NCBI GenBank assembly: GCA_013286315.1
Contig: JABDFX010000015.1
Span: 1 to 43,249, forward strand
Reading direction: 5' to 3'
Length of the DNA: 43,249 bases
Source: Bacteroidota bacterium
Lineage (GTDB): Bacteria; Bacteroidota; Bacteroidia; Chitinophagales; Chitinophagaceae
Translations under genes and position numbers: made by a program
The notes under the pieces: model-generated
Database searches by the model: none
Seen by the model: only the letters and a program-made list of their open reading frames with translations
What the model was told of the DNA's origin: nothing
In this document: piece after piece, positions 6,829 through 40,700 of the stretch
Numbering within the stretch: the stretch's first letter is position 1
How the letters are laid out: each line of letters begins with the position of its first letter

Positions 6829-6884
6829 ATGAAATAATTGAGCTGATTAGGTATGATAGTCAGATTAAAAGTAGCATGAAAAAT

Positions 6885-10917: not shown

Positions 10918-11274
10918 TTAATATTCCTTTATTAATACTTCGGTAGGAATATTTAAAGAGCTATTGAGCTTTCGAATCATGTCGAGAGACAATTTCCTTT
11001 TCATAGTCAGAATTTCGCTTACCCGGCTTTTGAAACCAATAACATTTGCCAGATCAGTCTGATTATACCCAAGCTGTTCCATTCTGAATTTAATTGCCTC
11101 AATGGGATGGGGAAAATCAATGGCAAAATGAGCTGATTCATATTTTTCTATCAGTATTGCCAGAATTTCCAGTTCATCACCTTCAGGTGTACCTGGTTTT
11201 GAATCAAATATCTTTTCCATCCTTGACATGGCAAGATTGTAATCTTTCTTAGTTTTTAACGGTTTGATATTCAT
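10918..11274 (-). CDS. higA: HigA-type antitoxin (XRE HTH)
   Basis: About 118 residues from the ATG at 11274 (MNIKPLKTKKDYNLAMSRM); a start 30 bases upstream is possible but would overlap the toxin more. The N-terminal half is helical and matches HigA-family antitoxins (KPLKTKKDYNLAMSRMEKIF, then PGTPEGDELEILAILIEKYE). The C-terminal half is an XRE-type helix-turn-helix: LGYNQTDLANVIGFKSRVSEILTMKR. The toxin stop (11276-11278) and this ATG are one base apart, so the genes are translationally coupled, with toxin first as in classic higBA operons. It should bind the dyad upstream of higB. Confidence 0.87.
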   Translation of the reverse strand: MNIKPLKTKKDYNLAMSRMEKIFDSKPGTPEGDELEILAILIEKYESAHFAIDFPHPIEAIKFRMEQLGYNQTDLANVIGFKSRVSEILTMKRKLSLDMIRKLNSSLNIPTEVLIKEY

Positions 11275-11275
11275 T

Positions 11276-11569
11276 TCAAATATTATTTGCGTCGATTTTA
11301 TCATACTGGCTATGGGTGCCGATAAATCTGATCCAAACTATACCATAATCATAGTTAATCCTCACAATTAACCGATAATTATTTCCCTTTATATTGAACA
11401 CCACCCGGTTGTTTTCAAGGATACTGGCAGTCGGATAATCTTTCTTTATACTTTTAGGAGATACCCATTTTGATTTTTCCGCTTCCCTGAACCAGGATTT
11501 TAACTGTTGTTTGCAATCCGGGTATTTGAACCAAAAATCCCTTAAACTCTTTTTTGCTATAACTCTCAA
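11276..11569 (-). CDS. higB: HigB-type mRNA interferase toxin
   Basis: 97 residues of the HigB toxin family (RelE-like fold, ribosome-dependent mRNA cleavage). Marks are MRVIAKKSLRDFWFKYPDC at the N-terminus, SWFREAEKSKWVSPKSIKKDYPTAS, the conserved NNRVVFNIKGNNYRLIVRI core strand, and VWIRFIGTHSQYDKID at the C-terminus with the family's FIGTHaeYDKID block. Length is typical. It is cotranscribed with the downstream antitoxin gene. Confidence 0.9.
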   Translation of the reverse strand: MRVIAKKSLRDFWFKYPDCKQQLKSWFREAEKSKWVSPKSIKKDYPTASILENNRVVFNIKGNNYRLIVRINYDYGIVWIRFIGTHSQYDKIDANNI

Positions 11570-22887: not shown

Positions 22888-22917
22888 TTGACATTCTAAA
22901 TAGATCGAATTTATAAT
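22888..22917 (+). promoter_or_regulatory. E. coli-type sigma70 consensus promoter for the defence operon
   Basis: TTGACA at 22888-22893 and TATAAT at 22912-22917 are both perfect hexamers with an 18-base spacer, placing transcription start near 22924, about 18 bases before the ATG of the regulator. Bacteroidota promoters normally use TTG/TANNTTTG instead. The surrounding DNA is very AT-rich, so chance must be considered, but the exact -35 hexamer is not pure A/T. Confidence 0.55.
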
Positions 22918-22941: not shown

Positions 22942-23169
22942 ATGTCTGATAGAATAAATATTAATAGAGTAAAAGAAGTTTTAAGGGATCAGGGAAGAAC
23001 ACAAACTTGGCTTGCTGAAAAAATAGGTAAGAGTTATGTTGTTGTAACAAATTATTGTAACAATAACAGTCAGCCAAGTATTGATGTGTTAAGAAAAATA
23101 GCCTTTGCATTGGACATTGATATTAGAGAACTCCTCGTACCGACTAAAGTTAAAAAGTCCGATGACTGA
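22942..23169 (+). CDS. XRE-family regulator, C-protein-like
   Basis: 75 residues, almost entirely one helix-turn-helix domain: INRVKEVLRDQGRTQTWLAE, then KIGKSYVVVTNYCNNNSQPS and a C-terminal ALDIDIRELLVP. Size and fold match controller (C) proteins that time expression of restriction-modification genes. It opens an eight-gene same-strand run, and its last codons overlap the vsr start by eight bases. I infer autoregulation and delayed expression of the nucleases after entry into a new host. A candidate dyad lies just upstream. Confidence 0.85.
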   Translation: MSDRININRVKEVLRDQGRTQTWLAEKIGKSYVVVTNYCNNNSQPSIDVLRKIAFALDIDIRELLVPTKVKKSDD

Positions 23170-23590
23170 CGTTCATACAAAGGAGAAAAGAAGTTTTAAT
23201 ATGAGCCGAATCAAGGGCAAGAATACCAAGCCCGAGATGATAGTTAGGCGGATGCTTTTCTCTCAAGGTTTTCGATACAGAATTCATCAAAAAATTCTCA
23301 AAGGAAGCCCCGATATTGTACTTTCTAAATATCGGACAATTGTATTTGTGCATGGATGTTTTTGGCATGGCCACGATAATTGTAAACAATTTGTATTACC
23401 GAAAACTAGAACAGATTGGTGGTATCGGAAAATAGTGAGCAACAAGGAAAAAGATGATATAAATATTGAAGTATTGGAAAGTGAGGGTTGGAATGTAAAA
23501 ATTGTTTGGAGTTGTGAATTGACCACGAAGAAAAGAGCATTAACAATTGAGAATCTCATTAAATCAATTCGAAAACATTTAGTCCATTGA
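23162..23590 (+). CDS. vsr: Vsr (very-short-patch) DNA endonuclease
   Basis: 142 residues from the ATG at 23162 (MTDVHTKEKRSFNMSRI), preferred over upstream starts because family members begin near SxxxRSxxMsxIkgkNT. Clear Vsr blocks are NMSRIKGKNTKPEMIVRR, GFRYRIHQKILKGSPDIVL (catalytic D in PDIV), VFVHGCFWHGHDNC (metal/active-site H and zinc-binding residues) and NIEVLESEGWNVKIVWSCEL. Vsr cuts beside T:G mismatches that arise from deamination of 5-methylcytosine, so pairing with a Dcm-type methylase is the textbook arrangement. In some restriction operons Vsr-fold enzymes instead act as the restriction nuclease. That matters here because no separate type II endonuclease is present. Confidence 0.92.
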   Translation: MTDVHTKEKRSFNMSRIKGKNTKPEMIVRRMLFSQGFRYRIHQKILKGSPDIVLSKYRTIVFVHGCFWHGHDNCKQFVLPKTRTDWWYRKIVSNKEKDDINIEVLESEGWNVKIVWSCELTTKKRALTIENLIKSIRKHLVH

Positions 23591-23597
23591 ATTTATA

Positions 23598-24833
23598 ATG
23601 AAACAGTTTAACTATATTGATTTATTTGCAGGGGCTGGCGGACTTTCCGAAGGTTTTATAAGGGCCGGATTTAAGCCTATAGCGCATGTTGAAAGTAACT
23701 TGCCTGCATGTTTTACATTAAAAACGCGATGTGTTTTTCATTTTCTTAAAAGCGTTGATAAAGACAATGTTTATCAGTCATATTTAAAAGGTGAAATATC
23801 AAGAAAACAATTATATGAAAACACACCTAGCAATTTGTTGGATTCGGTGATTAATGCAAAAATCGGCAAACAGAATAAAAATATATTCAAACAAATCGAT
23901 TCTCTTCTAGTGGACAGGGAAGTTGATTTAATTATAGGTGGGCCGCCTTGTCAAGCATACTCTTACATAGGCAGAGCGGCATTGAAGCATAAAAAAATTG
24001 ATGAGCGAAATACTTATTATATACAATATGGTCGATTTTTAAAAAAATATAGGCCTAAGATTTTTGTATTCGAAAATGTACCAGGTATATTAAGTGCAGG
24101 TGAAGGTGCCTATTTTAAGAACTTACAAAAGTATTACAAACGACTTGGTTATAATGTCGAAGCAAAATTGATTAATGCAAATGAACATGATGTTGTGCAA
24201 CATCGTGAGAGAGTCATCATAGTTGGCTGGATGAAAAAATTAAAGTTTAGTTACCCTGTGATTAAACCGTCCAAAAATAAATATTACAGAAATGATATTT
24301 TTTCTGACTTGCCTAGTATCAAACCAAACGAATCTAATAAGTATAAATTCTATTCGAAGCCAATTAATGAATATTTAAGTGAAACCAAAATTAGAAATTG
24401 TGTAGAATTTGTTAGCCAACATATAACCCGCCCGCATAACAAAAGAGACCTTGAAATTTATAAGCTGGCAATTGAAAAAATGGAAGCTGGAATTAGAATA
24501 AAGAATAATACTATTCCTATACAATTGAGGACTCAAAGTAACATAAAGGATTTTCTTGATCGTTTTAAAGTTGTCGGGAATCAACCTCATGCTGTAATTG
24601 CTCACATAGCCAAGGACGGACACCATTTTATTCATCATGATCCTGATCAATTAAGATCCATATCTGTACGTGAGGCAGCAAGAATTCAATCATTTCCTGA
24701 TGATTACTATTTCGAGGGAATTAAAGAATGCCAACCCAGAACTGCTGCATTTAGGCAAATTGGGAATGCTGTACCACCGCTGTTGGCTGAAAAAATTGCA
24801 AAATCGATATTTAAATCACTTCAAAGACTGTGA
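23598..24833 (+). CDS. DNA (cytosine-5) methyltransferase, Dcm-like
   Basis: 411 residues. Motif I is YIDLFAGAGGLSEGF (6-20). Motif IV is GGPPCQAYS with the catalytic nucleophile C118. Motif VI is FVFENVPG (E159-N160-V161), motif VIII is QHRERVIIVGW, motif IX is SVREAARIQSFPDDY and motif X is RQIGNAVPPLLAEKIA. Residues of about 215-330 between VIII and IX are the variable target-recognition region. A 70-residue insertion between motifs I and IV (about 42-108) is longer than in M.HhaI-like enzymes. The target site cannot be read from the sequence. It starts seven bases after vsr and its TGA overlaps the next gene's GTG by four bases. Confidence 0.95.
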   Translation: MKQFNYIDLFAGAGGLSEGFIRAGFKPIAHVESNLPACFTLKTRCVFHFLKSVDKDNVYQSYLKGEISRKQLYENTPSNLLDSVINAKIGKQNKNIFKQIDSLLVDREVDLIIGGPPCQAYSYIGRAALKHKKIDERNTYYIQYGRFLKKYRPKIFVFENVPGILSAGEGAYFKNLQKYYKRLGYNVEAKLINANEHDVVQHRERVIIVGWMKKLKFSYPVIKPSKNKYYRNDIFSDLPSIKPNESNKYKFYSKPINEYLSETKIRNCVEFVSQHITRPHNKRDLEIYKLAIEKMEAGIRIKNNTIPIQLRTQSNIKDFLDRFKVVGNQPHAVIAHIAKDGHHFIHHDPDQLRSISVREAARIQSFPDDYYFEGIKECQPRTAAFRQIGNAVPPLLAEKIAKSIFKSLQRL

Positions 24834-25906
24834 GTATTACTTTTAGAGAAATATTGAATCAAAAGTCATGGAATAGCTATGAAGAATATATTGCAGAAGG
24901 AATTAATCAATATTCGACTGAATTGTCAAGTGATATTGAAGAAGGTAGAAGACACAAAAAAGATATTAGAAACTTTATAGAAAGAAATTTTGACATAAAA
25001 CATATTCCTGCTGATCTTTCAAAAGAAACAAATCTTCTTACTTCAGGAGAAGTAGTCGGAATTGATGGGACTATTGCGACGCATAAAACAATAACAGGAA
25101 CAATGGCGCAACTTGGTGTTGTGGCCGTAAACTACCTAAATGAGAAAATTCAACATTCATGTTTCATTTCAGAAGCGAAGTATAAGCAGAATATTAATGA
25201 CGTTACGGAATATCTTTTTTCGCATGAGTCTTCAAATAAAGTAATTTCTAACCCGGTACTACGTGCGGCGTTACAAGTCCGTGAAAGGGAATTGGGACTA
25301 AATGATAAATTCAAAGACAAGTATAAGATATATCACGGACCATTGATTCCTTTTGAAATGTTAGCAAATCCCGGTAAGGCAGAACTAAAAATTCTTGATG
25401 TAACCGTTGAAATTCTCGAAAAGATAATTGCAAATAAGAAATGCCTGAGCATTATTTCCAGATCACAAAACGATGCCTATATACGCATCGGATTGTCATT
25501 GAACTCAGGGGAATATATTAAATTAAAAAAATCCGTGGGACTTGAAATTATTGAAGATAGAACCTTGTTAAGTGACAAGGATAGATGGCGAGAGGAAGAT
25601 TATTTGAAAGTAAATAATTTTATTAATCAACGAGCTGTTAAAATAAAGATCGGTTTGATTAAAGTTTCTCAACGGCCATACGTATTCCACGCGCATGAGG
25701 ACATTTTTGATTTAGCCGCAGGTCTTATTTACCGCGATTCTTTATTTCAGAAACAAAAAGGATTCCCATTACTGGTGGACTATGCCGATAATTTATGTTC
25801 AACTTATTTTAAGGCAAGCGACTTTAATAAAATAATAGAATATCAATTAGCAAAGGAAGGAGAATTTCTGTCGGAGATGTCAGAAGAAAATTTAAGGCAA
25901 AAATAA
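24830..25906 (+). CDS. NurA-like nuclease domain protein
   Basis: 358 residues from a GTG. Two features point to NurA: SGEVVGIDGTIATHKTITG, where D79-G80-T81 occupies the place of the catalytic D-G-S motif after a beta strand, and a C-terminal block QKQKGFPLLVDYADNLCSTYF resembling the second NurA strand and its acidic residue. NurA is a Mn-dependent 5'-3' exo/endonuclease that works as a dimer with the hexameric translocase HerA, and the very next gene encodes a HerA-like ATPase two bases away. The N-terminal ~70 residues are helical. The DGT form instead of DGS is a mild departure. The assignment rests on motif plus neighbour, not on overall similarity. Confidence 0.6.
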   Translation: MSITFREILNQKSWNSYEEYIAEGINQYSTELSSDIEEGRRHKKDIRNFIERNFDIKHIPADLSKETNLLTSGEVVGIDGTIATHKTITGTMAQLGVVAVNYLNEKIQHSCFISEAKYKQNINDVTEYLFSHESSNKVISNPVLRAALQVRERELGLNDKFKDKYKIYHGPLIPFEMLANPGKAELKILDVTVEILEKIIANKKCLSIISRSQNDAYIRIGLSLNSGEYIKLKKSVGLEIIEDRTLLSDKDRWREEDYLKVNNFINQRAVKIKIGLIKVSQRPYVFHAHEDIFDLAAGLIYRDSLFQKQKGFPLLVDYADNLCSTYFKASDFNKIIEYQLAKEGEFLSEMSEENLRQK

Positions 25907-25908
25907 AT

Positions 25909-27543
25909 ATGGAACTGGATAAAAAACAAGCGTTAGGATTTGTAAATTTTGATTCAGGCGTTGGATCAAATAATGAAGTGGAAATTAGAGTCCCGTTTGA
26001 TAGGCTTAAAGAGTTGTCCAGGGGAAAGTATGTTATTATACCGCATGATAAGAGCGGGAACTACTATCTTGCGCGACTGACAAGAGGGCCTTTTTTTACG
26101 CCTGACGCAGTTAGTAGAGATTCTGCGTTCGCAAGGGCGTCAATAGTGCAGGCAGGTGATATTGCATTTATGCCAGATTATCATGGTATTGGCTATTGTG
26201 AGTTAATCGGTTTATTTCACTATAATTCCTCGCATCTTTCTGGCGTTCAAACCAGGCCGCATCCAAAATCACCTGTATTTAATCTGCCATCTGACAAAAT
26301 CCAGGAACTATTAAAGTTAAAAGGGAATATGTATTTGGGGCAATTGAGTGGATATGAGGGAATACGAGTATATCTTGATGCAAATTCCAAAGTTGTTTTA
26401 CCAAGAAACATTGGGATATTCGGAACTGTCGGATCTGGTAAAACAAATTCTTCTCAGGTGTTGATAGAGGAAGCTGTTGCAGCTGGTTGGGCGGTAATTG
26501 TGCTCGACGTCGAAGGAGAGTATATATCAATGGATAAACCTAATTCTGAAATAGAACACAATCCAGGTTTAAAAAGAAAAGCGGAACAATATCAGATTGT
26601 GCCTGAGGGACTGAAATCTTTTCAGGTTTATAACCCTGCCGGAACGGATAGCAGACGAAAAGATTCCCTTGAATTTAGTATCCCATTTGGAAGTCTTTCT
26701 CCTTACGAGCTTTCTGCAATTATGGGAATGAACGAAACGCAAGAAGATAGATTTATAGATTTGTGGGATAAATTAGTAGCGGATATTACTGTGAAGGCCA
26801 CCCCTTCCAAACCCCCCAAAAATCAATGGAAAGCTATCGATGAAAATAAATTTCAGGAGGAGCCCGAATATCCTGATCTTACGATACTTTCATTGTTGGA
26901 TAAGCTAAATGATGAAATAACGAGACAAACTGGCTCTTCAAAGGCTTCGTGGCTGTTAGTAAAACGACTTTTGAACAGATTAAAGAGGTTTGGAATTTTT
27001 GATTCGACGGAAGACACTTTGGATGTTTCTGATTTTCTTAAGGCAGGAAAGCTGAGTGTACTTGATTTGAGTAACTCATATACAGTTCAGGTAAATAATA
27101 TTGTAATCGCATATTTACTTCGAAAGATATTCGACAGAAAAATTCAGAACCCGGATTTGCCACCAACTATAATCTTTATTGAGGAAGCCCACACATTTGT
27201 AAGTAAGGAAAATGCCTCCAAAATGGAAGCATTACTCGATCGTTTAAGAGAAGTCACGCGAAGGGGAAGAAAGCGGTGGCTTGGTTTGTGTTTCATTTCA
27301 CAGCAACCATCTCATTTACCTGAGGAAATATTTGAATTGTGCAACACGAAAATTATTCATCAAACTACTGGTAATAGGAATTTGAATGCTTTAAAAATTT
27401 CTGGAGGTAATGTAAATGAAGCAATATGGGATGATGTACCAACTTTAGGTCAAGGTAGAAGTATAATTATTTCTCCTCAATATCAGCATCCAATTATGAC
27501 GAATATGCGAATTTGTAAAACCAATAGGGAGCACACTGACTAA
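25909..27543 (+). CDS. HerA-like ATPase (FtsK/HerA superfamily, DUF87)
   Basis: 544 residues. An N-terminal HAS-barrel-like region (about 20-160, including YVIIPHDKSGNYYLARL) precedes the ATPase. Walker A is GTVGSGKTNS (172-181) followed by IVLDVEGEY (197-205); Walker B is IIFIEEAHTF (421-430); an arginine-finger-like cluster follows in REVTRRGRKRWLGL, then the sensor strand CFISQQPSHLPEEIF. The hydrophobic end TLGQGRSIIISPQYQHP is typical of HerA. Hexameric HerA proteins translocate on double-stranded DNA and load NurA. HerA-like ATPases recur in anti-phage systems paired with Sir2, DUF4297 or nuclease partners. Confidence 0.9.
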   Translation: MELDKKQALGFVNFDSGVGSNNEVEIRVPFDRLKELSRGKYVIIPHDKSGNYYLARLTRGPFFTPDAVSRDSAFARASIVQAGDIAFMPDYHGIGYCELIGLFHYNSSHLSGVQTRPHPKSPVFNLPSDKIQELLKLKGNMYLGQLSGYEGIRVYLDANSKVVLPRNIGIFGTVGSGKTNSSQVLIEEAVAAGWAVIVLDVEGEYISMDKPNSEIEHNPGLKRKAEQYQIVPEGLKSFQVYNPAGTDSRRKDSLEFSIPFGSLSPYELSAIMGMNETQEDRFIDLWDKLVADITVKATPSKPPKNQWKAIDENKFQEEPEYPDLTILSLLDKLNDEITRQTGSSKASWLLVKRLLNRLKRFGIFDSTEDTLDVSDFLKAGKLSVLDLSNSYTVQVNNIVIAYLLRKIFDRKIQNPDLPPTIIFIEEAHTFVSKENASKMEALLDRLREVTRRGRKRWLGLCFISQQPSHLPEEIFELCNTKIIHQTTGNRNLNALKISGGNVNEAIWDDVPTLGQGRSIIISPQYQHPIMTNMRICKTNREHTD

Positions 27544-27544
27544 T

Positions 27545-29677
27545 ATGCCTGAAATTAATTTCACACCCAAAGCACGTCTTATAAAGATTCTTGGCGAACA
27601 GTTAATTAAGGATGCAGCTGTTGGTATAATTGAATTAATAAAAAACTCATACGATGCAGATGCTACAGATGTCGAAATCGTTATGTCATCATTAAATACG
27701 CCGAATGCTAGAATAACTATTCGTGATAACGGTAGCGGAATGGATTTACCAACGTTTATTTCCAAATGGATGAATCCGGCCACAGGACATAAAGAAGAGC
27801 AAAAGGAAAGAAAGGAGAGGACAAAATTGAAACGACTGCCGTTAGGTGAAAAGGGAGTTGGAAGATTTGCTGCACAACAAATAGGGGCACATCTGAAAAT
27901 GATTACGAAAACAATAGAATCAGAACAAGAGCTGTTTGTGGATATTGATTGGTCAAGATTTGATGTTAAAGGAAAAGACCTGCATGATGTAAAAATAAAA
28001 TATGAAATGCAAGTGTCTGATAAATTTGGATACAAGAAGACTGGAACTCTACTTGAAATAACAAATTTGAAATCTGAATGGAGGGAAGAAGAAATAAGTA
28101 AGGTGTCAAACTCACTACTCAGAATGAAGAGTCCCTTTAAAGGCGCTTCTGACTTTAATGTAACACTTAGATTTGAAAATTGTCCAGAAGAATTTAAAAA
28201 ATACGAGAATTTAGATACTACAGATATTCTCGAAAAAGCTCCTTATTATTTCTATGCTATAGTAGGTGACGATGGGGAGGTTGAGTATGATTACAAATTC
28301 AAAATGACGGGATTTAAAGGGAGGAAAAGTTCTGAGACTGCCAATGTATATTCTGATACTGGTTATAAAGTCAATCGTAAAATAAGTGTTGGAGCTTTTT
28401 TGGTAAACATTTATGTTTACGATAAAAGTCCTGATAAACTTAGAATTGCTCAGATTCCAAAAGATGTTCTTAATAATTGGACTGGAATTAATGTTTATAG
28501 AGATGGTATAAGAATTTTACCATATGGTGATCAAGGTAATGATTGGTTGAAATTAGACAATAGAAGAATTCAACAAACTACAAGAATCAGTAATGATTTG
28601 GTTATTGGGATGGTTGAAATAGATCAAGAAATAAACAACACATTAAAAGACAAAACAAACAGAGAGGGATTAATAGAAAATGACTATTATGAAAAGTTTA
28701 GAAATTTAATTTTAGGAACAATTACAATATTTGAAGCTGAAAGGGAAAAGGACAGAGAGCGGGTTTATCCACGGAAGGCAAAAACTACAAATGAAAATAT
28801 TGATGAAAAAGTAAGCATTGTTAAAACAGATATTGGCGAAATTATAAGGAAAGTTGAGGAGTCTGATGTTAAAATCGGTCAAGAGACTACACCACTTTTA
28901 AATAAAGTTGGACAGCGAATTACCGAATTAAAACAACAAGTGACAGATACGATTGATGAACTTGAAAAGGATAAGCAGATACTTTTCAATCTTGCGGGTA
29001 CTGGTCTTGCAGCGGAGAGATTTACTCACGAATTTGCGAGATTGGTTAATGGGGCACTGGCTTCATTAGAAAGGTTACAAAAAAGGATAGACCTAAACGA
29101 TGGGAAAATAAAAAAAGAAGTTGATTCTTTAAGCGGTGCCTTGGAGGCTTTAAGGAATGATATACGGTTATTGGGTCCTATGTTCTATATCAAGAAGGTA
29201 GCAAAGGAAAAGAATTTAAATATCCGTGATGTTATTAACAATACCATCTCACTTCAGGAACCTTTTATTGAGAAGGCTGAAATTGAAATAATTGTTGAGG
29301 GTGGCAATTTTTTCGTAACAATGAGGGAGGGGTCGTGTATGCAAATTTTTAATAACCTTATAGATAATTCAATTTTTTGGTGTTCGAGGAAGTCTGAAAA
29401 GGATAAAAGGCAGATTAAAATGACTATTGATCAAGAGACTAAATCTATTTATTTCTCTGATAGCGGACCGGGTATCGCAGTTCGTTACCGTGATAAAATA
29501 TTCGATCCTTTCTTTTCAATGAAGGGTGAAGATGGGAGGGGCCTTGGACTTTATATAGTTAAAGAAATAATGGATGAAAAGAATTTCGTAATTGCGGTAT
29601 TGACGGAAGATGATGATGTTGAGATGCTACCTGGAGCACGCTTCTTATTATTGTTTAAAGACAACAACGAATCATGA
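27545..29677 (+). CDS. Dual-GHKL ATPase: MORC/MutL-like plus histidine-kinase-like
   Basis: 710 residues with two separate GHKL-type ATPase modules. Module 1 (about 1-210) is MORC/HATPase_c_3-like: N-box IIELIKNSYDADA with N34, G1 RDNGSGMD (D61), G2 LGEKGVGRFAA (100-110), then GTLLEITNLK. Residues of about 215-400 fit an S5-like transducer. A helical, coiled-coil-prone linker runs at 420-480. Module 2 (about 480-706) looks like a histidine-kinase core: a dimerisation helix with LAAERFTHEFARLVNGAL in which H495-E496 is the candidate phosphoacceptor, N-box NNLIDNSIFW (N604/N608), G1 DSGPGI (639-644), F-box KIFDPFFS, and G2 GRGLGLYIV. There is no membrane segment, so it is cytosolic. The next gene, four bases overlapping, encodes a receiver protein. 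Confidence 0.85.
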   Translation: MPEINFTPKARLIKILGEQLIKDAAVGIIELIKNSYDADATDVEIVMSSLNTPNARITIRDNGSGMDLPTFISKWMNPATGHKEEQKERKERTKLKRLPLGEKGVGRFAAQQIGAHLKMITKTIESEQELFVDIDWSRFDVKGKDLHDVKIKYEMQVSDKFGYKKTGTLLEITNLKSEWREEEISKVSNSLLRMKSPFKGASDFNVTLRFENCPEEFKKYENLDTTDILEKAPYYFYAIVGDDGEVEYDYKFKMTGFKGRKSSETANVYSDTGYKVNRKISVGAFLVNIYVYDKSPDKLRIAQIPKDVLNNWTGINVYRDGIRILPYGDQGNDWLKLDNRRIQQTTRISNDLVIGMVEIDQEINNTLKDKTNREGLIENDYYEKFRNLILGTITIFEAEREKDRERVYPRKAKTTNENIDEKVSIVKTDIGEIIRKVEESDVKIGQETTPLLNKVGQRITELKQQVTDTIDELEKDKQILFNLAGTGLAAERFTHEFARLVNGALASLERLQKRIDLNDGKIKKEVDSLSGALEALRNDIRLLGPMFYIKKVAKEKNLNIRDVINNTISLQEPFIEKAEIEIIVEGGNFFVTMREGSCMQIFNNLIDNSIFWCSRKSEKDKRQIKMTIDQETKSIYFSDSGPGIAVRYRDKIFDPFFSMKGEDGRGLGLYIVKEIMDEKNFVIAVLTEDDDVEMLPGARFLLLFKDNNES

Positions 29678-30864
29678 AGAGAGTTTTGCTTATAGATGAT
29701 GACGATCAAATACTTGAAAATCTTGAAGAGTCTTTTGCAACTAATAATATTTCTGTAATTAAATGCATTGATAGAAGTACAGCGTTTCAGGCAATTAATG
29801 ATGATATTCCATTTGATGCCGTAATTCTGGATTGGTATTTTGTACTAGATCAGGATAGTGCGATCTGTAAGGAAATCTTGAGGGAGTTGGGTGAAAAACA
29901 TTTTAAGCCAGTTTTCATATATACTGGTAATGTTGAAGATTATCGAAATACGGATAAGAACGAATTGAATTTTCCGGAAAATTTGTTATTGGAGTATTTT
30001 AAAGCCGAAACGGATGTTAAAATATTGAGCGAGCATGTTCAACATTTGTTTGATACGAATTTTTCAATTCAAATTGCATCTTTGTACCGTAAAAGCATAT
30101 CCAAAAATTTTGAAAAGGTCTTGTTTGAACTAAACGAACTGCAAAATATTGATCTCGCAAGAGTTCTAAACAAGATATATGGGAATGGGTTAAATGTGGA
30201 TTGGAGTAATGATGTAGTTTTGAATTTGCTTCATCGTTCCTTAGTCTCCGATTCAGGTTTTATTGAAGGGATTATTGCAATTTTACAATTGGCTAGCCAC
30301 ATAAATGTAGGGGCAAGTGCAGAGGACCGAAGAAAGATAGCAAATAGAATACTCTATTTTAGATCGAAAACGGAATTTATAAGAAACGGAGATATAGTTA
30401 CGATTAACAGAGTAGACGATAATTTAAGGGTAGCATATGGAATTGTTGTCACTCCTGATTGCGATCTTGAGCAATCATCTTCCCAGTATATCGATCTTGT
30501 AGAGTTAATAAAATTTAATAGCGATCGGCTTGCATTAAATGCTGATAACAATAGAAAAATAAGATCATATAATCACGATTCGTTTTATCTTTTTCAAGCA
30601 CTACTTATTGATGATGCATTTCAAGATTTTGTGGCAATTTTGAAATCTAGAATGGTGGTGAAGGAATTTTCAGAGCACTACCATATAAATTATCCTAAAG
30701 CGTCAAAGCGGCTTCTATATTCGCATGAGTTTATTTATAATGGCGAAAAAGTTAAACTTATTTTGTTATGCACGAAGGTTAATCCATATAAAGCTGAGTT
30801 TTTGCAAAGGCTTCATTCAAGCGCAAGTAGAGTTGGTATACCAGATATCAAAGACCTTTTATAA
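29674..30864 (+). CDS. Receiver-domain protein with unknown C-terminal region
   Basis: 396 residues. The first ~125 form a CheY-like receiver: RVLLIDDDDQ (acidic cluster D8-D11), AVILDWYF with the phosphoacceptor D53, IYTGN with T84, and K110 in EYFKAET. All key residues are kept, so phosphorylation is feasible. The remaining ~270 residues match no output domain I know. They include a helical part (130-235) and a beta-rich part with GDIVTINRVDDNLRVAYGIVVTPDCDLEQ, in which TPDCDL (260-265) is a striking Cys/Asp motif. No DNA-binding HTH is seen. It overlaps the GHKL gene by four bases and shares one base with the HNH gene, so it is placed as the partner of module 2 of the preceding protein. 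Confidence 0.82.
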   Translation: MKRVLLIDDDDQILENLEESFATNNISVIKCIDRSTAFQAINDDIPFDAVILDWYFVLDQDSAICKEILRELGEKHFKPVFIYTGNVEDYRNTDKNELNFPENLLLEYFKAETDVKILSEHVQHLFDTNFSIQIASLYRKSISKNFEKVLFELNELQNIDLARVLNKIYGNGLNVDWSNDVVLNLLHRSLVSDSGFIEGIIAILQLASHINVGASAEDRRKIANRILYFRSKTEFIRNGDIVTINRVDDNLRVAYGIVVTPDCDLEQSSSQYIDLVELIKFNSDRLALNADNNRKIRSYNHDSFYLFQALLIDDAFQDFVAILKSRMVVKEFSEHYHINYPKASKRLLYSHEFIYNGEKVKLILLCTKVNPYKAEFLQRLHSSASRVGIPDIKDLL

Positions 30865-31628
30865 TGATTAGAAACAATTGGAATCACGATGAGTTAATTG
30901 TTGCTTTCAATCTTTATTGTAAGACGCCGTTTTCTAAAATCGGCTTAAATAATAGCGGCATTCAGGTATTAGCTAAAACTATACATCGTTCTGTATCAGC
31001 CGTAGCATTAAAACTAACAAATTTTGCACGGTTAGATCCTTTCCTCCAAAATAGAGGCTTAAGTGGTATGAGTAATGGAAGCAAAGGGGAGGTGAAAGTA
31101 TGGGATGAATTTAATGGCAATTGGGACGAACTTGCTTTTGAAAGTGAACGGATTCTCGCAAAGTATAAGAACAAGTCTATTGAAAAATCAGCGGATATTT
31201 ATACAAAAGATTTACTTCCTGAAGGGAAAGAACGCGAAGCCATTATAAAGAGGAGAGTAAATCAGTCTTTTTTTAGAAATTCCGTTTTAGCTTCCTATAA
31301 TAATAAGTGCTGCATTACGGGTATTTCCATTCCAGAACTTCTTGTAGCTGGACATATTATACCTTGGTCGATTAACTTGCAACAGCGAACAAATCCTGCG
31401 AACGGACTATGCCTTAATGCTCTCCACGATAAGGCTTTTGACAAAGGTTTGATGACAATTAATTCGGATTACACAATTAGGTTTTCTAAAAATTTACTTA
31501 ACAAAACAAAAAAGGATTACGATATGCATTTTCACCCTTATGAAGGGAAATCTATAAGTTTACCTCAAAAGTTTTATCCCCAGAAAGAATTTCTAGAATT
31601 CCATAACTCAAATGTGTTTGTAAAATAG
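30864..31628 (+). CDS. HNH endonuclease with N-terminal DNA-binding domain
   Basis: 254 residues. The N-terminal ~85 (NNWNHDELIVAFNLYCKTPF, then VSAVALKLTNFARLDPFL and KVWDEF) form a helical domain found in front of many restriction-type HNH nucleases and probably contact DNA. The nuclease domain (about 130-200) is the HNH_2 type: NKCCITG (C149/C150), VAGHIIPW with H164, NPANGLCLNALHDKAFDKGL with N180 and H188. The residues needed for the beta-beta-alpha metal site are present. It is the last gene of the operon, joined by a TAATG overlap, and is a likely DNA-cutting effector alongside Vsr and NurA. No terminator hairpin follows immediately. Confidence 0.9.
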   Translation: MIRNNWNHDELIVAFNLYCKTPFSKIGLNNSGIQVLAKTIHRSVSAVALKLTNFARLDPFLQNRGLSGMSNGSKGEVKVWDEFNGNWDELAFESERILAKYKNKSIEKSADIYTKDLLPEGKEREAIIKRRVNQSFFRNSVLASYNNKCCITGISIPELLVAGHIIPWSINLQQRTNPANGLCLNALHDKAFDKGLMTINSDYTIRFSKNLLNKTKKDYDMHFHPYEGKSISLPQKFYPQKEFLEFHNSNVFVK

Positions 31629-31936
31629 GATCACGAATGTAGCTTTTGTTTGATCTAACAGGTCTGCAAATATATTTCTTCGTCAGTTTTTCTGCAGCCT
31701 TCAAAATCGAACGCGTTTCTATTTTGTATGGGTCTCTCATGCTATAAATCTTTAACGTTCGATTTTTACGAATACTTATAATCGATCGTCGAGGATTGGT
31801 TGACAAAAGTTTAAAATAATAATAAAAAAAATAAATAGAAGAGTTCAAATTGCAAATATTCACCTTTTAAATTACTTAAGATTGTTGTAAGCAACATGAG
31901 AGAAGCAATGCTAAAACAAGAGAATAACTAATTTTA

Positions 31937-32221
31937 TTAACAGTAAATAGAGTGAGCCTTATGGATTACAAGGGTGGATAATAAAATCTGAAGTATCCAA
32001 AACAACCAGGTCCATCGTACGTGCAATTTTTTCCTGCCCTCATATCCAAAAAATTTTTTCCAGCCCATTTCTTTGTTTTTATCATACACCATATGTTCCA
32101 GAAACTTTTCTTCTATTTTTTTAAGATAAATGCCGATCCACTTAATGTCTTTATACAAAACAATACACTGACACCATAAAAAATAATTGAAACAGCAAGA
32201 AAGATCACTACCGAATTTTCA
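31937..32221 (-). pseudogene. Decayed membrane-protein gene fragment
   Basis: On the minus strand two frames together look like one protein: a hydrophobic stretch VVIFLAVSIIFYGVSVLF (about 32221-32168), then, after a frame change near 32158, KDIKWIGIYLKKIEEKFLEH, GWKKFF and a second hydrophobic helix WTWLFWILQILLSTLVIHK ending at 31937. The pattern helix, short basic/acidic helix, W-rich helix recalls small bacterial membrane proteins with a cytosolic loop. No start codon is credible upstream. Low-confidence relic. Confidence 0.35.
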
Positions 32222-32479
32222 ATTTATCTTAGAGCGCTTGATCAAAAGATCAATAATCTGTTAGTTCGAGTCTATCGAAGCGGAACCATTTACGATGCGA
32301 TTAAACACTCCATTCAAGCGATTTATGAAATTTTGAGCAGCACTTGATTGAACAAAGACTATTCGATTATAGAACTACTATATAAGTGATTCAGTTCCTA
32401 AACTGTTCCTAATTCAGACTAACTCTGCATGAATCAACGGAAAATATTTTCTGATAACGAAAGTACTGTGGAAACAGAC

Positions 32480-32493
32480 CGGTGAATTCACCG
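32480..32493. repeat. 14-base perfect palindrome CGGTGAATTCACCG
   Basis: A perfect dyad, followed four bases later by another partial copy of its half (CCGGTGA at 32499-32505), so alternative hairpins can form. Function unknown. Confidence 0.5.
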
Positions 32494-32700
32494 AAAACCG
32501 GTGAGCTCAATGGAAGTTCTTGTATAAAACTTCCCCAATTCCAATAAATCATAAAAATTCTCTGCCGAGTGTTATCCAAAAAATTGATGGAAGTAATTTT
32601 TGTATTAGAGTTTCTTACTTTAAAAGCTATTACGCCTTTCGTCTAAATCGAAGATCTATTATGAGATGACATACTTCATCAGCTAAGGCGATTGTTGATA

Positions 32701-32728
32701 TTTTCATTTGCTTGAATTCAAATGAAAA
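32701..32728. repeat. Perfect hairpin TTTTCATTTG / CAAATGAAAA
   Basis: Ten-base perfect arms around an eight-base loop (CTTGAATT). No T-run follows, so it is not a standard terminator. It lies in the non-coding gap between the defence operon and the RHS cluster. Confidence 0.55.
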
Positions 32729-32819
32729 AGACATCGCTTAATTTCTAACTCAAATAAGGGTTAACCCTGTTCAGGGTGATGGATTTTTAAATATGGTAAC
32801 TAACTAAAATCAGTAAACG

Positions 32820-32900
32820 CTAAGTGTTTCTATGTATTAAATCGTTTTTTTACGAAGTACTACTACTAAAAATTAGGTGGGCACTAAGTGTTTCCATGTA
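32820..32900. repeat. Direct repeat pair CTAAGTGTTTYATGTA-like
   Basis: Two copies of a 17-base sequence, CTAAGTGTTTCTATGTA (32820-32836) and CTAAGTGTTTCCATGTA (32884-32900), differ at one base and start 64 bases apart. They could be paired protein-binding sites or a small duplication upstream of the RHS cluster. Confidence 0.5.
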
Positions 32901-32964
32901 GAAAAAAAAATATTTGTTAAAAAAAATATTGTGATTTGAAAAAATGTTTTCATATTACATGAGT

Positions 32965-32997
32965 AAAAAATAATTAGCGTTCTAGTAATTATTTTTT
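32965..32997. terminator. Symmetric A/T hairpin, possible bidirectional terminator
   Basis: Perfect 12-base arms AAAAAATAATTA / TAATTATTTTTT enclose a nine-base loop GCGTTCTAG. The stem ends in a T6 run on the plus strand and, by symmetry, on the minus strand. The all-A/T stem is weak for a terminator, but the length and symmetry are well beyond chance. Confidence 0.45.
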
Positions 32998-33312
32998 CTC
33001 CGATGTAACAATCATCGCGATAATATCTAATCCTTCCGTACAAACCACTTTTTAATTTCCCACGACTCCTGAGACTTGATCTCCTTTGCTAATTGATCAC
33101 CTTTCCTATTGGTCTCTCGTGCTTGCAGTTATTGAACGGCTAAAAATATTTTTTTTAGCTGCATTAATATATCGTGTATTTCAAAATAGTAATATGGAAT
33201 CAAAAAGGAGGTCTTCGAAATAATTTATAACTAATAGCTCAAATATTTTAGATCTGATATAACTCTTTAGATCTCGACACCCCTTCCTTGTAACTATTAA
33301 ACTGTAGAAATT

Positions 33313-34782: not shown

Positions 34783-37700
34783 ATGAAAACTAAAATCTTT
34801 TTATTGACTATTCTGATTCTACTGCGCCTGGAGAATATTTATCCGCAGTCGGGAAATCCATATATACCCAAAGTGCTTACTCCTTCTCCCACCGCAGCAG
34901 CGCTTATGAAATTCACAGATGTTCCGGTCAGCAAATACAATGGCACTGCGGACGTCAGTGTTCCGTTTTTTAATATTGAAACTAAGGACCTGACTATTCC
35001 GGTGAGTATTTCCTATCATACCGGGGGGGTAAAAATTAAAGACGAGTCCGGTCCGGTTGGTCTTGGTTGGGCATTAAATGCCGGCGGCATGATCAGCAGG
35101 GAATTCAGAGATCAGGACGATTTTGGAGGTGAATATTTTAATGAACCGGTGCCGGAGGTTACCTCCAATATCATTCCGCAGGGTGCCATTGGTCACCCGG
35201 CTACGTCTTTCGGCGACGGATATCTTTTCTTTTGTGATTATATCATGCATACTGGCCAGGGAGATTTGAATTATACTACTGCGTTGCAGGGTGGGGCTTT
35301 AATTTGGGACATGGAGCCGGATATCTTCAGCTATAATTTTCCTGGCCACAGTGGAAAATTTATTATTACCCGTGCGGGAAAAGTGTTAATGCAGAAACAG
35401 GAAAATATTAATATACAATATACTCCCGGCGGCGCGGCATTCACCATTACGGATGATCAGGGTAATGTATTTTATTTCGCAAACAAAGAACTGGTTGAAT
35501 CTGATAATTATGTTGGTTACAGAACCAGCTCCTGGATGTTGACTAGTATTTTTCCCCAGTCTGGTGAAGTGATCAACTTTACATATCAGACAGATAGTTC
35601 CTGGTCTTTTGTCCAGGCTGATACCTATGATACTTACCGAACCGGATGTACTGGTGCAGGACCTCACCCGTATATACCGGCAGCCAATCAATATTTAAAC
35701 CTCACTCTTCAAAAAATTGACTTTCCGAAGGGTCAAATTCAGTTTCAGATTGATGGAAACCGGGAAGACTTGCAGAACGGGAAAAAATATAATACGATCA
35801 CGATATACACGAAAGCAACTGGCACCAGCGCTTTAACATACCTAAAGGAATATGATTTGTATTATTCTTATTTTTTAGCCGGAAATACGGATCCGATTCA
35901 TTTTGAAAGATTGAGGCTTGATAGCTTAAAAGAATTATCCACAGGAATAAACCTTCCGCCTTACCGGTTTACTTATAATACTACTGGGAACTTTCTTGCA
36001 AAAAATGGACACGCCGTTGACCATTGGGGTTTTTATAATGGTCAGGGTGGTAATCAGACATACATCCCAACTTTTAGCGCGCTGGCAAATGGTACTTATA
36101 TAGATATAGAAGGAGCGAACCGTGAATCTGATTTTCAGTCAGCCAGTTGCTTTTCCTTAACACAGGTTACTTATCCAACAGGCGGCCACACTTCTTTCGA
36201 ATATGAATTAAACAACTATGATCAGGTTCGGTCTTCAAATGGTCCGGTCGATTTTCCTTTCTTAAAATTGATTCCGAAGAATTTCACTTTAAACTACAAC
36301 GGAAGAAGTACTCAAAGCGGTAGCCTGGATTTAAGTAATCTCTACCCAATTACAACTACTAGTACAAATCTTAACCTATCTGTGACATTCAGAGCCGCGT
36401 CCAATATGACGCCATATAAGAATACACAAGGTAAAATATACTTTGTATTTAATGGCGTTACATATGATGTGGATGCCTCTCAATGTGATACAATGCAGCC
36501 AGTATGTCATATAAATACTCAAATTATTATCAGCCGTGGTCAATCATATAATTGGTCTGTCTATATCGATCCATCCATTGATACTTTATTCGAAGGAATT
36601 ACCGCATTTTTTAACTGGCAGGAAATTGCTACAGCAAATAATCCTCATTTACCATTAGATGCCGGTGGACTCCGTATAAAAACAATTACAGACTATTCAT
36701 CAAATGGCATTGCTGCAAAAAAAAGACGGTATGCATACGATAATGAAACGCCGTCAAACTTATTTACCTATGGACGCTTAATGGCGCCTCCACAATACGC
36801 CAGATACGAGGATCTCTATTATTCAGCACCGCCTTACGGAAGCCCTCTTGGTTTTGCGTCGGGTAGTTATAATTGCACCAGTCTAACGCAGACGGGATCC
36901 AGTAATACGGCTGTCACCAGTGCGATCAATGGAAATATTGTGGGTTATGATACAGTAAAGGAATACATGGTGGACCCCATAACGGGTTTTGATATCGGCA
37001 AAACTGTCTACACCTATTTTAATTCAGCAGATACGATACTTCCATTTGCAGGATTTACGTTGCCAGGCGTGTCAAATATGGGAAATAACCTGAATGGGTC
37101 TCTTCTCTCTAAGATTGTATATAGAAACTCCAATAATACGTATTTCCCGGTGACAGAAACTGATAATTTTTATCATACCGAAAACAGAACGCCCCTTTAT
37201 TCTGGTAAATACACTATGCTATCGCTTACAAGTGGATACTCATCTGATTGTCCTGGCGGTAACTGCAATTCAAATGAATACCTCGCGGAATTTTATCCGT
37301 CGATCAAATCGGAAAAAATCCTATTTGATTCTACCTATGAGACATTATATGATCAGATAGACCCAACTAAGTTCATGTTGACAAAAAAATATTACGCCTA
37401 CGATAATCCCAAACATTACCAGGTTACCCGGTCATGGCAGCAGGACAGTAAAGGCAATACCATAGTAAATAATACAAAATTTCCGCAGGACTATATACCA
37501 GTGGGCAATACACTTACGGGAAATACGATCATCGACAGTATGATCAAACGAAACATGGTGAGCAACACTATAGAAACACGGGACAGCTTATATTTTAATG
37601 GGTCTTCTACGGGATTTGTAACCGGAGCCAAGCTAAACACATACAAGATATTGTCCAGCGGATCGATCAGTAAGGATAAGATGTATTCGTTAACTGTTGC

Positions 37701-40700
37701 GAGCCCGGTAGCGAATTTCAATCCTTATACAGTTAATAACAACGTAACCAGCCAGGATAGTCGTTACCGTCAGATGATCAGTTTTGATTTATACGACAAT
37801 CTGGCCAATATTCAACAATATACGTCCACAGACCAGATACCAATGTCATTTTTATGGGACTACGCGAATAATTATCCGATTGCTCAGGTAAAAAATGCGG
37901 TGAACTCAGATATTGCTTTTAGCAGTTTTGAAGCAGATGGAACAGGGAACTGGAATTTGACAACAGGAGGAGGAAACACATCACAGGTTTCGGTTAATGT
38001 AAATGCAGCCGGATCTAATGTAAATTTATTTCCAACTCAATCTTCCACTGGTGTTACAGAGAACGATCACAATCAAGGGACAACAGGCCAGGAACTCGGT
38101 GTGAAATTTACTTCAGCGGTTGCGGGTCAGATAAAGGGTATTCGCTTTTACAAAACATCCGGAAATACGGGCACACATATCGGTGAGTTATATTCTTCCA
38201 CCGGCACCAGACTGGCGCAGGCAACATTTTCAGGCGAAACCGCTACGGGATGGCAGACTGTAAATTTCACTTCACCGGTTTCGATCACCGCAAACACGAC
38301 ATATACCGCAGCATATTTCAGCAGTCTCGGAAATTACACAGAACAGGACAATTATTTCCTGCGAAATTCAGTAACAAACAGTCCTCTTACGGCGGCAGCT
38401 GATGGAACAAACGGATCTATTGGCGCCGATCCAGGGTCAGGACAAGGCACTTATAAATATACTTCTGCTGCCGCGTTCCCGAATCAGTTGTATAAGGCGG
38501 CCAATTATTGGGTAGATGTTATTTTCACACCTGCTACAACACCTTACGCTAATGCGGGCCCTACACAGACCACTACTTTACCTCTCTCAACGGTGGTTCT
38601 TGACGGCAGCGGGTCCACAGGATCTGTAACAAGTTTTAGCTGGACGAATATCTCCGGTCCTAGTACACCCGTAATTACATCAGCGACATCTACTTTCACA
38701 ACGGTCACAGGGCTCATACAGGGAGTGTATGTTTTTCAATTGTCTGTTAATTCTGGTGCCAGTACTTCACAGGTAACGATCAATGTTCAGGCGGCAGGAA
38801 CTCCGACAACCATTTTTACCAACCAGACAGTTCCAACTGCCACGCTGAATGATGGAACGGCCCTAGAAGTCGGAGTAAAATTCAGAGCATCGACAACAGG
38901 AACAATAACCGGCATCAGGTTTTACAAAACAACCGGAAATACAGGAACACATATTGGTGAAATGTATTCATATCCGGGAGGAACAAGACTGGCCCAGGCA
39001 ACGTTTTCGGGAGAGACCGCAAGCGGATGGCAAACTGTTTTGTTTTCAACGCCTGTTTCCATTGCAGCAAACACGACTTATATAGCTTCCTACTGGAGCG
39101 GTTCTGGTAACTATCCCAGTACTTCCAACTTTTATGGCAATCCGGTCATCAATGGTCCGCTGACCGCTCTGGCGGATGGTACCGATGGTCACAATGCGGT
39201 ATACAGTTACAGTACAGTACCCGCGTTTCCCACAACTTACACGACCATGTTTGACCAGCCAAATTACTGGGTAGACGTTATGTTCCTACCAAGTTCAGCT
39301 CCTGTGCCAAGTGCCGGAAATAATCTATCGGTGACTCTGCCCGTGTCATCGGTTACGTTGAACGCGAATAATTCTATAGGGAATGTTTCAAACTACCTCT
39401 GGACAAAAGTTTCGGGTCCAGGATCTCCGATAATAGTTTCTCCTAACAGCGCTACAACGAATGTCACTGGTTTAAGTGCTGGTAGCTATGTTTTCCAACT
39501 GGCTGCAAACGGCGGAATCAATAGTGCTTATGGCGGACTGACGGGCTCAAAATCTTATAATCTGGCGGGCAATACCATAACCAAAACAGGGTTAACAACC
39601 GGGAAAAAATATACGTTATCTTACTGGAGCAGAGGAGGCGTCGTTTCTGTTTCAGGTGCAACATCGACCAGCACTATAGGAAGATCGACTAACGGCTGGA
39701 CATATTACGAGCATGTTTTAACTACAACGGCTTCCACAATTTCAGTTACAGGTTCCAGTTATATCGATGAACTCAGATTGTATCCTCAGGGGTCACAAAT
39801 GACAAGTCTGACATACACGCCATTGGTAGGTACTACTACAAGTAATGACCTAAACAGCGAGATAACTTTCTATGAATATGATAGTTTGCAACGACTTAAA
39901 AACATCAAAGATTATATGGGAAATATTACAAATAATTTCCAATATAACTATGCAAAGGCATGTACCGTTTGTAATATTCCAATGCTGACCTACGCCAATA
40001 CTCCAACCATCAGCTACCCAGTAGGAGTATTTAATCAATGGAATCAGTTGCTTGGAAACGCTACTACGCAGGCACAGTACATTAGTATTTGGAACGCTGA
40101 TGGGAGTAATAGCGCCATAGGTACACTTAGCGCCGGAGCTGATTCCATGCATTTTATTTTAACTGTGAATACCGGTCAAAATTCTCCAGGATTTGTAACA
40201 GGATGCAGATATTATCAATATGACTTGTCATATAATTTGCTTGACGGAATATTGAAACGAACTGGAGAATATGTGGATTTTGGCGACGGAAGCAGCCTTT
40301 TCCTGGGTAAAACAGTTGCAGATACATTGGATATTCTGAAAGGTGCAACAACCTCAATTATAACATATGATGGCACTTTAACCAACGCTTATTTTGAGCA
40401 TCATTATCTGGATAGCTCGTTAAAGACGATAACTATTTACCACAATGATGGGACTGAAATTGTTGGGCTGGACAATGCGCTGGCGCCGGCTACAAGTTTA
40501 ACATTGTTAAAAAATGTTAGAGGAAATTATCCACAGCACATGTCGGGAATAGCTAATTCATCTTATCAGCAAAATACAGCTAATAGTATTTCGGCCATTT
40601 ATAACTGGAATACAATTAACTCGCTTACATTATTTTATCTCAACAGTGGTGACGGGGGCGTAAATACCTGCGCGAATATGGGGTATGCCCAGGACTTTAT

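Follow-up and report, generated by a model that had tools for sequence, protein, structure and literature searches.

What kind of system is encoded by an operon that places a DNA methyltransferase and a HerA-type DNA translocase next to a double-GHKL protein and a receiver-domain protein? The question is raised by eight genes at positions 22942..31628 of contig JABDFX010000015.1 from a Bacteroidota bacterium of the family Chitinophagaceae (GCA_013286315.1), situated in a stretch of 43,249 nucleotides that was analysed as a whole and is here called the window. In the interpretation that we favour, with a probability of roughly 50%, the operon specifies a GHKL (HEF_HK)/receiver-class restriction system that spares methylated DNA and whose engine would be the HerA translocase together with a dedicated partner, a protein of 358 amino acids (aa). 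The operon looks like a rare variant of a described class of signalling elements linked to restriction–modification (R-M), not a categorically new system, its new part being the HerA translocase and its 358-aa partner inside the GHKL–receiver chassis. Its components are the following.

22888..22917, + strand: candidate operon promoter, TTGACA-18-TATAAT, a 12/12 sigma-70-type match 24 bases before the first ATG
22942..23169, + strand: Cro/C1-type helix-turn-helix (HTH) regulator, possibly a controller protein (HTH_3, 7.2e-10; PADLOC Control_protein only 0.0021)
23162..23590, + strand: Vsr (very short patch repair) endonuclease, accessory (Pfam Vsr, 1.1e-35; NCBIfam TIGR00632, 138.9 bits, cut-off 97.85)
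23598..24833, + strand: C5-cytosine DNA methyltransferase, the proposed self mark (DNA_methylase, 3.9e-60; PADLOC DrmMII, 2.1e-148; PCQ at 117, ENV at 159)
24830..25906, + strand: 358-aa protein adjoining HerA, a family without profile match (invariant IDGT, D79)
25909..27543, + strand: HerA-type DNA translocase (DUF87, 1.4e-23; HerA_C, 1.4e-12; PDB 9x1l, 5.5e-20; HERA 4d2i, 7.5e-19)
27545..29677, + strand: double-GHKL protein, 710 aa (HATPase_c_3, 3.8e-21; HATPase_c, 1.1e-17; HEF_HK, 0.0033)
29674..30864, + strand: receiver-domain protein, 396 aa (D53; C-terminal beta-rich part; C263-D264 invariant)
30864..31628, + strand: HNH_2 endonuclease, accessory (HNH_2, 1.2e-13; PADLOC HNH PDLC04132, 1.5e-91)

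All eight open reading frames (ORFs) are intact and lie on one strand, with exactly the junctions listed by an earlier sequence-only reading of this DNA (8-bp overlap, 7-bp gap, 4-bp overlap, 2-bp gap, 1-bp gap, 4-bp overlap and 1-bp overlap), and the operon is, as that reading also noted, AT-rich (GC 34.7%, versus 40.4% in the remaining window). The methylase, HerA, both ATPase halves of the GHKL protein, the HEF histidine, the receiver aspartate and the HNH motif all appear intact by sequence. The HerA protein exceeds the family cut-off for DUF87 (84.6 bits versus 23.2) and carries Walker A (GTVGSGKT, 172), Walker B (IFIEEA, 422) and TRRGR (450) motifs, and NCBIfam cut-offs are reached by just two of the operon proteins, Vsr and the methylase.

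Does the gene set recur elsewhere? Short peptide patterns from the 358-aa protein alone, scanned against 84,980 species genomes, returned seven relatives of 70–87% identity, a number that is a lower bound because of this way of searching; they come from Bacteroidetes, Hydrotalea or Chitinophagaceae (L045, L046, L047, L048) and from Ignavibacteria (L049, L050, L051). The methylase gene lies immediately upstream of the 358-aa gene in all seven, HerA immediately downstream in all six with sequence there (L049 is cut by a contig end), and in the five relatives whose loci no contig end interrupts, HerA is always followed by the GHKL gene and then the receiver gene. The sequence-only reading had proposed counting genomes in which at least six of the eight genes recur in the same order, and this is the case in all five complete relatives, each on a single strand: L045 has seven families (HTH, methylase, 358-aa protein, HerA, GHKL, receiver and HNH), and six are found in L046 (Vsr, then methylase to receiver; the named strain Hydrotalea flava CCUG 51397), L047 (methylase to HNH), and L048 and L050 (HTH, then methylase to receiver). 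The core genes are mostly a few bases apart in L046, L048 and L050, with 31 bases between GHKL and receiver in L050. Such recurrence is more than chance. The eight genes are, however, not the one fixed unit that had been envisaged: the constant core consists of the methylase, the 358-aa protein, HerA, GHKL and receiver genes, and the presence of HTH, Vsr and HNH varies. In L045, L048 and L050 the gene right before the methylase encodes an HTH protein (HTH_3). An intact Vsr gene occurs in three of the five complete relatives, at varying places (downstream and on the opposite strand in L047 and L050); L045 retains only a stop-broken stretch of it, and L048 has no Vsr match and encodes a protein of the HhH-GPD base-excision-repair family overlapping the end of the receiver gene. 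HNH is present in the window, L045 and L047 and has no match in L046, L048 and L050. With HNH absent from three, and an intact Vsr from two, of the five complete relatives, neither looks like an obligatory effector, and the earlier proposal that Vsr takes part in the cutting is unlikely in view of L045 and L048. Because some relatives keep the five-gene core although they have no HNH or no intact Vsr, we infer that HerA and its partner, under the GHKL–receiver pair, constitute the restriction engine.

The distribution of HNH also bears on a simpler explanation, namely that the locus is a conventional type II-like R-M unit (controller, Vsr, methylase and HNH) with an inserted HerA cassette and GHKL–receiver pair, in which HNH alone would restrict and the middle genes would form a separate defence or repair module. 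The HNH protein matches PADLOC HNH profiles, one of which bears the name of a type II restriction enzyme; in the accessible text of PMC8011034 no nuclease is better represented near GHKL–receiver pairs than HNH_2; and L104, from the sister lineage of the GHKL protein, carries a close HNH homologue (1e-79). The window does have the DNA methylase of a type II system, and HNH_2 could serve as its cognate endonuclease here and in L045 and L047, yet the five core genes are kept in order in the three relatives without an HNH match, and we regard this explanation as doubtful.

Upstream of the operon copy in L047 there are relaxase and MobC/NikA-like genes (6293-7953, − strand), which suggests a mobilisable element. 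In smaller samples the 358-aa protein was restricted to the source genome (among 296 phylum genomes and 178 class genomes), with no match in the plasmid collection or in viral contigs. In an empty-site comparison with a genome of the same genus (G391), the flanks found no match.

What is the 358-aa protein? The label "NurA-like" attached to it by the sequence-only reading finds no support in any test that we ran. The protein has no match in Pfam, PADLOC, NCBIfam or PHROGs, the NurA profile PF09376 is silent across the source genome up to E 10, and a search against PDB sequences failed to support the assignment. Comparison by hhalign with alignments of ten NurA proteins (A6) and of four R-M-linked NurA proteins (A7) gave probabilities of 0.2 and 1.4, the two alignments matching each other at 100, and with a combined profile 28 of 150 column shuffles scored equally well. 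The structure model, with a mean predicted local distance difference test (pLDDT) value of 40.4, is unusable for a fold search. The resemblance to NurA is by eye only, lying in IDGT towards the N-terminus and GFP...DYAD near the C-terminus; the C-terminal stretch aligns locally with NurA GYP..EAH at a non-significant E of 0.29, and Tyr and His would be replaced. The IDGT motif (D79) is invariant in an alignment of seven 358-aa proteins, that of the window included. The NurA label should best be dropped for now, and the family be regarded as a possible new partner of HerA or a possible new nuclease.

The two proteins downstream of HerA link the operon to what has been described before. The 710-aa protein comprises an N-terminal paraMORC/MutL-like ATPase, a middle region, a HEF-type DHp with H495 and a C-terminal kinase ATPase, and is followed by the receiver protein. 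Bellieny-Rabelo et al. (2021; PMC8011034), in the accessible text of their article, report a two-component-like element of HEF_HK and Response_reg_2 proteins linked to R-M, Bacteroidetes included, with 664 proteins in 644 regions, 91.6% kinase–receiver linkage, C5-methylases as neighbours and Vsr in 20 genera. The likeness lies in a protein with HATPase_c_3, a HEF-type histidine and HATPase_c adjoining a receiver protein, and C5-methylase, Vsr and HNH_2, all neighbours of the reported type, are present in the window operon. The operon differs in that its proteins are below the Pfam cut-offs of both HEF_HK (18.3 bits versus 24.1, with both ATPase domains over theirs) and Response_reg_2, and in that HerA, DUF87 and NurA are mentioned nowhere in the main text of that paper. 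Earlier, Iyer et al. (2008; PMC2292703) had proposed paraMORC GHKL ATPases as R-M components, and the operons in the accessible part of that article resemble ours in combining a GHKL ATPase with cytosine methylase, Vsr and HNH neighbours; its text speaks of SFII helicases, and HerA, NurA and "receiver" are not in it. The earlier statement that no named system has this gene set overlooked both papers. That no existing model describes the whole set is concluded from the protein profiles of PADLOC and NCBIfam, as distinct from the system rules of PADLOC or DefenseFinder. The HerA-bearing set itself was not found described in the titles, abstract openings and passages searched, a body of literature with subscription papers largely outside it; a figure legend of predicted systems in DefensePredictor (PMC13092281, as accessible) lists HATPase with REC.

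Relatives of the GHKL protein are common. At E 1e-50 they turn up in 36 of the 395 genomes searched from the phylum (source genome included); among 72,556 plasmid records, 172 have a match at E 1e-5, and in 78 of these a single place has a coverage of 80% or more; viral contigs contribute 70 loci. H495 is invariant in all 11 aligned GHKL proteins, the HEF motif is present, and the Walker, DHp and receiver residues of the window are invariant across alignments; the kinase-to-receiver relay suggested by the sequence-only reading is thereby supported at the level of residues only. The pair could instead be a stress-responsive two-component regulator of R-M gene expression or activity, not a DNA sensor gating degradation. 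The accessible text of PMC8011034 indeed reads it as a possible two-component system and states that the genes are activated in Pectobacterium in contexts of stress, and in the wider family the distances of receiver and kinase agree closely (r 0.89, 16 loci). However, residues 13-193 of the GHKL protein resemble the BbrUII/HgiDII restriction-enzyme family (2.5e-20; 72.6 bits, far below the model cut-off of 550), and the receiver protein (residues 1-134 of which were used for fold comparison) has no PADLOC profile match and, beyond its receiver part, no Pfam, NCBIfam or PHROGs family match marking a DNA-binding output. Moreover, methylases 88% identical to each other (L084 and L090) are accompanied by GHKL and receiver proteins of only 24% and 17% identity, as if these were an exchangeable restriction half. 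A purely regulatory role is, in our opinion, unlikely.

Is HerA a regular companion of such pairs? We inspected 29 Bacteroidota regions (L084-L112) around GHKL places outside the source genome, which cover 30 of the 40 such places and include some short ones at contig ends (e.g. L086, L089 and L111). Matches to the window methylase occur anywhere in 18 of them, to Vsr in 13, to HNH in one and to the 358-aa family in none. A first HerA profile (A2) proved too narrow, missing all four HerA-like proteins of regions L129-L132 even at E 10, whereas a broad profile rebuilt from nine proteins recovered all five left-out divergent members at E 3.3e-58 or better. At E 1e-3 the broad profile has no match in the 29 regions or in five plasmid regions (L040-L044), and in the 70 viral-contig loci it has two weak matches (L169 1-922, 2.3e-10; L167 8910-10418, 2.4e-9), some 6–7 kb from GHKL. 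No HerA adjoins GHKL in the 29 regions or in 69 viral-contig loci (one of the 70, without a GHKL ORF, was dropped), where the six ORFs on either side of GHKL include a C5-methyltransferase at 29 loci, Vsr at ten, HNH at two and a match to any NurA profile at none. The genome, plasmid, phage and viral searches made with the window HerA or A2 are valid for HerA of the window kind only; this kind is present, at E 1e-60, in the source genome and one other (L113) of 395 genomes. In L113 GHKL is matched only weakly (3e-13), and the methylase and the 358-aa protein not at all. Searched against 296 genomes, the receiver protein finds weak matches in 30 besides itself, most of them to its receiver part. 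A FastTree phylogeny of 103 GHKL proteins unites the six that are linked to HerA in a single clade (support 1.0), and the sister of this clade under midpoint rooting is L104/L105 (support 0.83). Since these six make up one clade and HerA does not otherwise adjoin GHKL in our sample, HerA and its partner entered the GHKL chassis once, as far as the sample shows.

Other engines are found in the same chassis. An EcoRII-C endonuclease is encoded near the GHKL–receiver pair in L040 and an AspBHI-N/Mrr endonuclease in L087. In L098 an AAA_5 protein matching PADLOC REase_II, a McrB-like engine, is encoded between methylase and GHKL, i.e. in the slot of HerA in the window; the position of the NTPase is thus shared, but AAA_5 and a 558-aa protein without family stand in place of HerA and its partner. 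The methylases of L084, L085 and L086 are 72–88% identical to those of L089, L090 and L091, the GHKL proteins only 24–26% and the receiver proteins 13–17%, as if the same modification could be combined with two exchangeable partner halves. In L090 (431-6000, + strand) a 1224-aa Helicase_C protein and a 635-aa MZB protein are encoded end to end with the methylase–GHKL–receiver–Vsr set and point towards it.

Within the HerA-bearing clade the components have evolved unequally. Mean pairwise identity among six complete loci, the window included, is 81% for HerA, 79% for the 358-aa protein, 63% for GHKL, 58% for the methylase and 45% for the receiver. The distances of HerA, the 358-aa protein and GHKL agree (r 0.86-0.98, reached by 2-6 of 720 permutations), and these three diverge in step, as would be expected of one machine. 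Correlations with this core are 0.38-0.40 for the methylase and -0.01 to 0.19 for the receiver. The contrast is visible between L045 and L046, which share 93.6% identity in HerA, 88.5% in the 358-aa protein, 85.8% in GHKL (98% in DHp), 54.6% in the methylase and 36.2% in the receiver, L046 being also without HNH. Ratios of non-synonymous to synonymous substitution rates (dN/dS) are 0.024-0.067 in the nine of 31 pairs with finite dS, all of them 358-aa (0.024-0.052), HerA (0.024-0.047) or GHKL pairs, the other pairs being saturated; purifying selection on the 358-aa protein, HerA and GHKL is thereby shown. The methylase and receiver distances are correlated with each other at r 0.70 (26 of 720 permutations; six loci, ten pairs compared, uncorrected). 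A specificity pair of methylase and receiver was not replicated once GHKL was held constant, the partial correlation being 0.136 (p 0.10) at 16 loci, and 0.133 (p 0.15) at 13 loci; two subsets that exclude the HerA clade give -0.005 and -0.14. Because the link vanishes in this way, a joint exchange of methylase and receiver is kept as a hint only.

How might such a restriction system work? We infer its activity, the protection by methylation, the relay, a nuclease function for the 358-aa protein and the succession of steps as follows. The C5-methylase would mark self sites, and Vsr, or in L048 perhaps the HhH-GPD glycosylase family protein, would repair the T:G mismatches arising from deaminated 5-methylcytosine. 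The N-terminal MutL/paraMORC-like ATPase of the 710-aa protein may use ATP to clamp or sense DNA that is unmodified or invading, upon which the C-terminal kinase would phosphorylate H495 and the phosphate would pass to D53 of the 396-aa receiver. The phosphorylated receiver would then license the HerA–partner complex to translocate on DNA and destroy it, and in some lineages HNH would contribute a cut as well. Control of nucleases by GHKL proteins during restriction has support from paraMORCs (PMC2292703) and from VcSduA (PMC12137116), a GHKL–nuclease fusion which, according to the accessible text, restricts phage and needs both its ATPase and its nuclease residues.

The repair enzymes in this scheme could also be taken at face value, the operon then being a genome-maintenance module at 5-methylcytosine sites, with the methylase, Vsr and the MutL-like ATPase acting in very short patch repair and HerA and its partner resecting ends. 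Vsr works with MutL in Escherichia coli, and HerA-NurA repairs breaks in archaea and Deinococcus; a reference on Vsr with MutL is cited in the accessible text of PMC2292703, and the occurrence in L048 of an HhH-GPD family repair protein without a Vsr match would fit as well. Nevertheless, Vsr is a remnant or absent in two of the five complete relatives, and the sporadic spread (at least seven loci in 84,980 species genomes), together with the relaxase/MobC neighbourhood in L047, suits a mobile defence system, and a dedicated maintenance role seems to us very improbable.

Several points count against a HerA-driven restriction system. The source assembly is 58.8% complete and in 202 contigs, and six of the seven relatives are titled metagenome-assembled genomes. 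The 358-aa protein shows no nuclease homology detectable in profile or hhalign searches. Receiver and kinase distances within the clade are correlated at only r 0.19 (195 of 720 permutations), which is unusual for a cognate pair; between L045 and L046, for instance, identity is 98% in the DHp domains and 37% in the receivers. In L084, L085, L086, L089, L090 and L091, the methylase, GHKL, receiver and Vsr occur without a HerA or HNH match, and ten neighbouring proteins in L084, L085, L090 and L091 gave no match to a restriction nuclease family; the GHKL–receiver pair may therefore act without a translocase. Finally, the restriction activity of the set is a prediction, and the papers seen give no measured activity for it.

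A more specific version of the restriction hypothesis, which we put forward tentatively, is phosphorelay-licensed restriction. His–Asp transfer would control the destruction of unmethylated DNA by a HerA ring and its nuclease partner, the 358-aa IDGT family, which would be new and distinct from NurA, and the constant set of HerA, partner and kinase would be combined with a varying flanking methylase and receiver, maybe exchanged together. Since 2021 such two-component-like pairs have been listed as neighbours of restriction genes, with no test of a mechanism (PMC8011034, accessible text). The operon links such a pair to an assayable DNA motor, so phosphotransfer gating of restriction becomes directly testable.

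HerA proteins take part in other composite operons. Four regions (L129-L132) contain HerA-NurA operons without a GHKL or receiver match; they resemble the window operon in having HerA beside a partner and a DNA-methylase-like or HsdR-type gene (in L129 and L130 a methylase-like protein of 375 and 372 aa, identified by eye), and differ in that all four partners match PF09376 over the cut-off. In L132 (5441-14271) HerA and the NurA-type gene directly precede an HsdR-like gene, with likely HsdM and HsdS genes recognised by size and order only. The accessible texts on anti-invader capture by HerA/FtsK and on BREX-related capture (PMC10853773, PMC12839542) likewise present HerA as the DNA-handling engine of a composite defence operon; GHKL, MORC, receiver and Vsr are terms found in neither. 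A likeness to DISARM is limited to the methylase, which is close to the DrmMII profile: DrmA, DrmB and DrmC are absent from the matches listed for the eight operon proteins and ten other window proteins (for the methylase, the best 25 of 60 families). Among the matches listed for mad1-mad8 of MADS there is only mad8, via the HerA domain (2e-17). The neighbours of HerA match no SIR2 or DUF4297 family in Pfam, PADLOC or NCBIfam, these being the partners in the HerA-SIR2 and HerA-DUF4297 defence systems.

The TTGACA-18-TATAAT element before the operon is the only 12/12 match among 47 sites, a total equal to chance (mean 47.2). Bacteroidota promoters usually differ from the sigma-70-type consensus, and we treat the element as a lead only. 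The region upstream of the operon, checked for a controller box, contains only AT-rich, mostly imperfect inverted repeats.

A related module in L109 (9982-12855) has in a row genes for GHKL, a protein of about 220 aa, a PtuB/HNH-like protein and a PADLOC type II methylase; L108 also has a type II methylase by PADLOC, and L112 is likened to the L109 module by gene sizes only. Elsewhere in the window, a 128-aa HTH protein (10918-11304, − strand), perhaps of antitoxin type, matches positions 1-120 of the 402 of PADLOC PD-Lambda-2_B (2.5e-42), and a PemK/MazF-like toxin gene lies at 3914-4246 (− strand; 3.7e-26). The approximately 1.7 kb right after the operon (31629-33312) are AT-rich, without a convincing gene, and perhaps represent decayed DNA. 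Further downstream, a repeat-rich ORF of 2118 aa (34783-41139, + strand) appears RHS/YD-like by eye.

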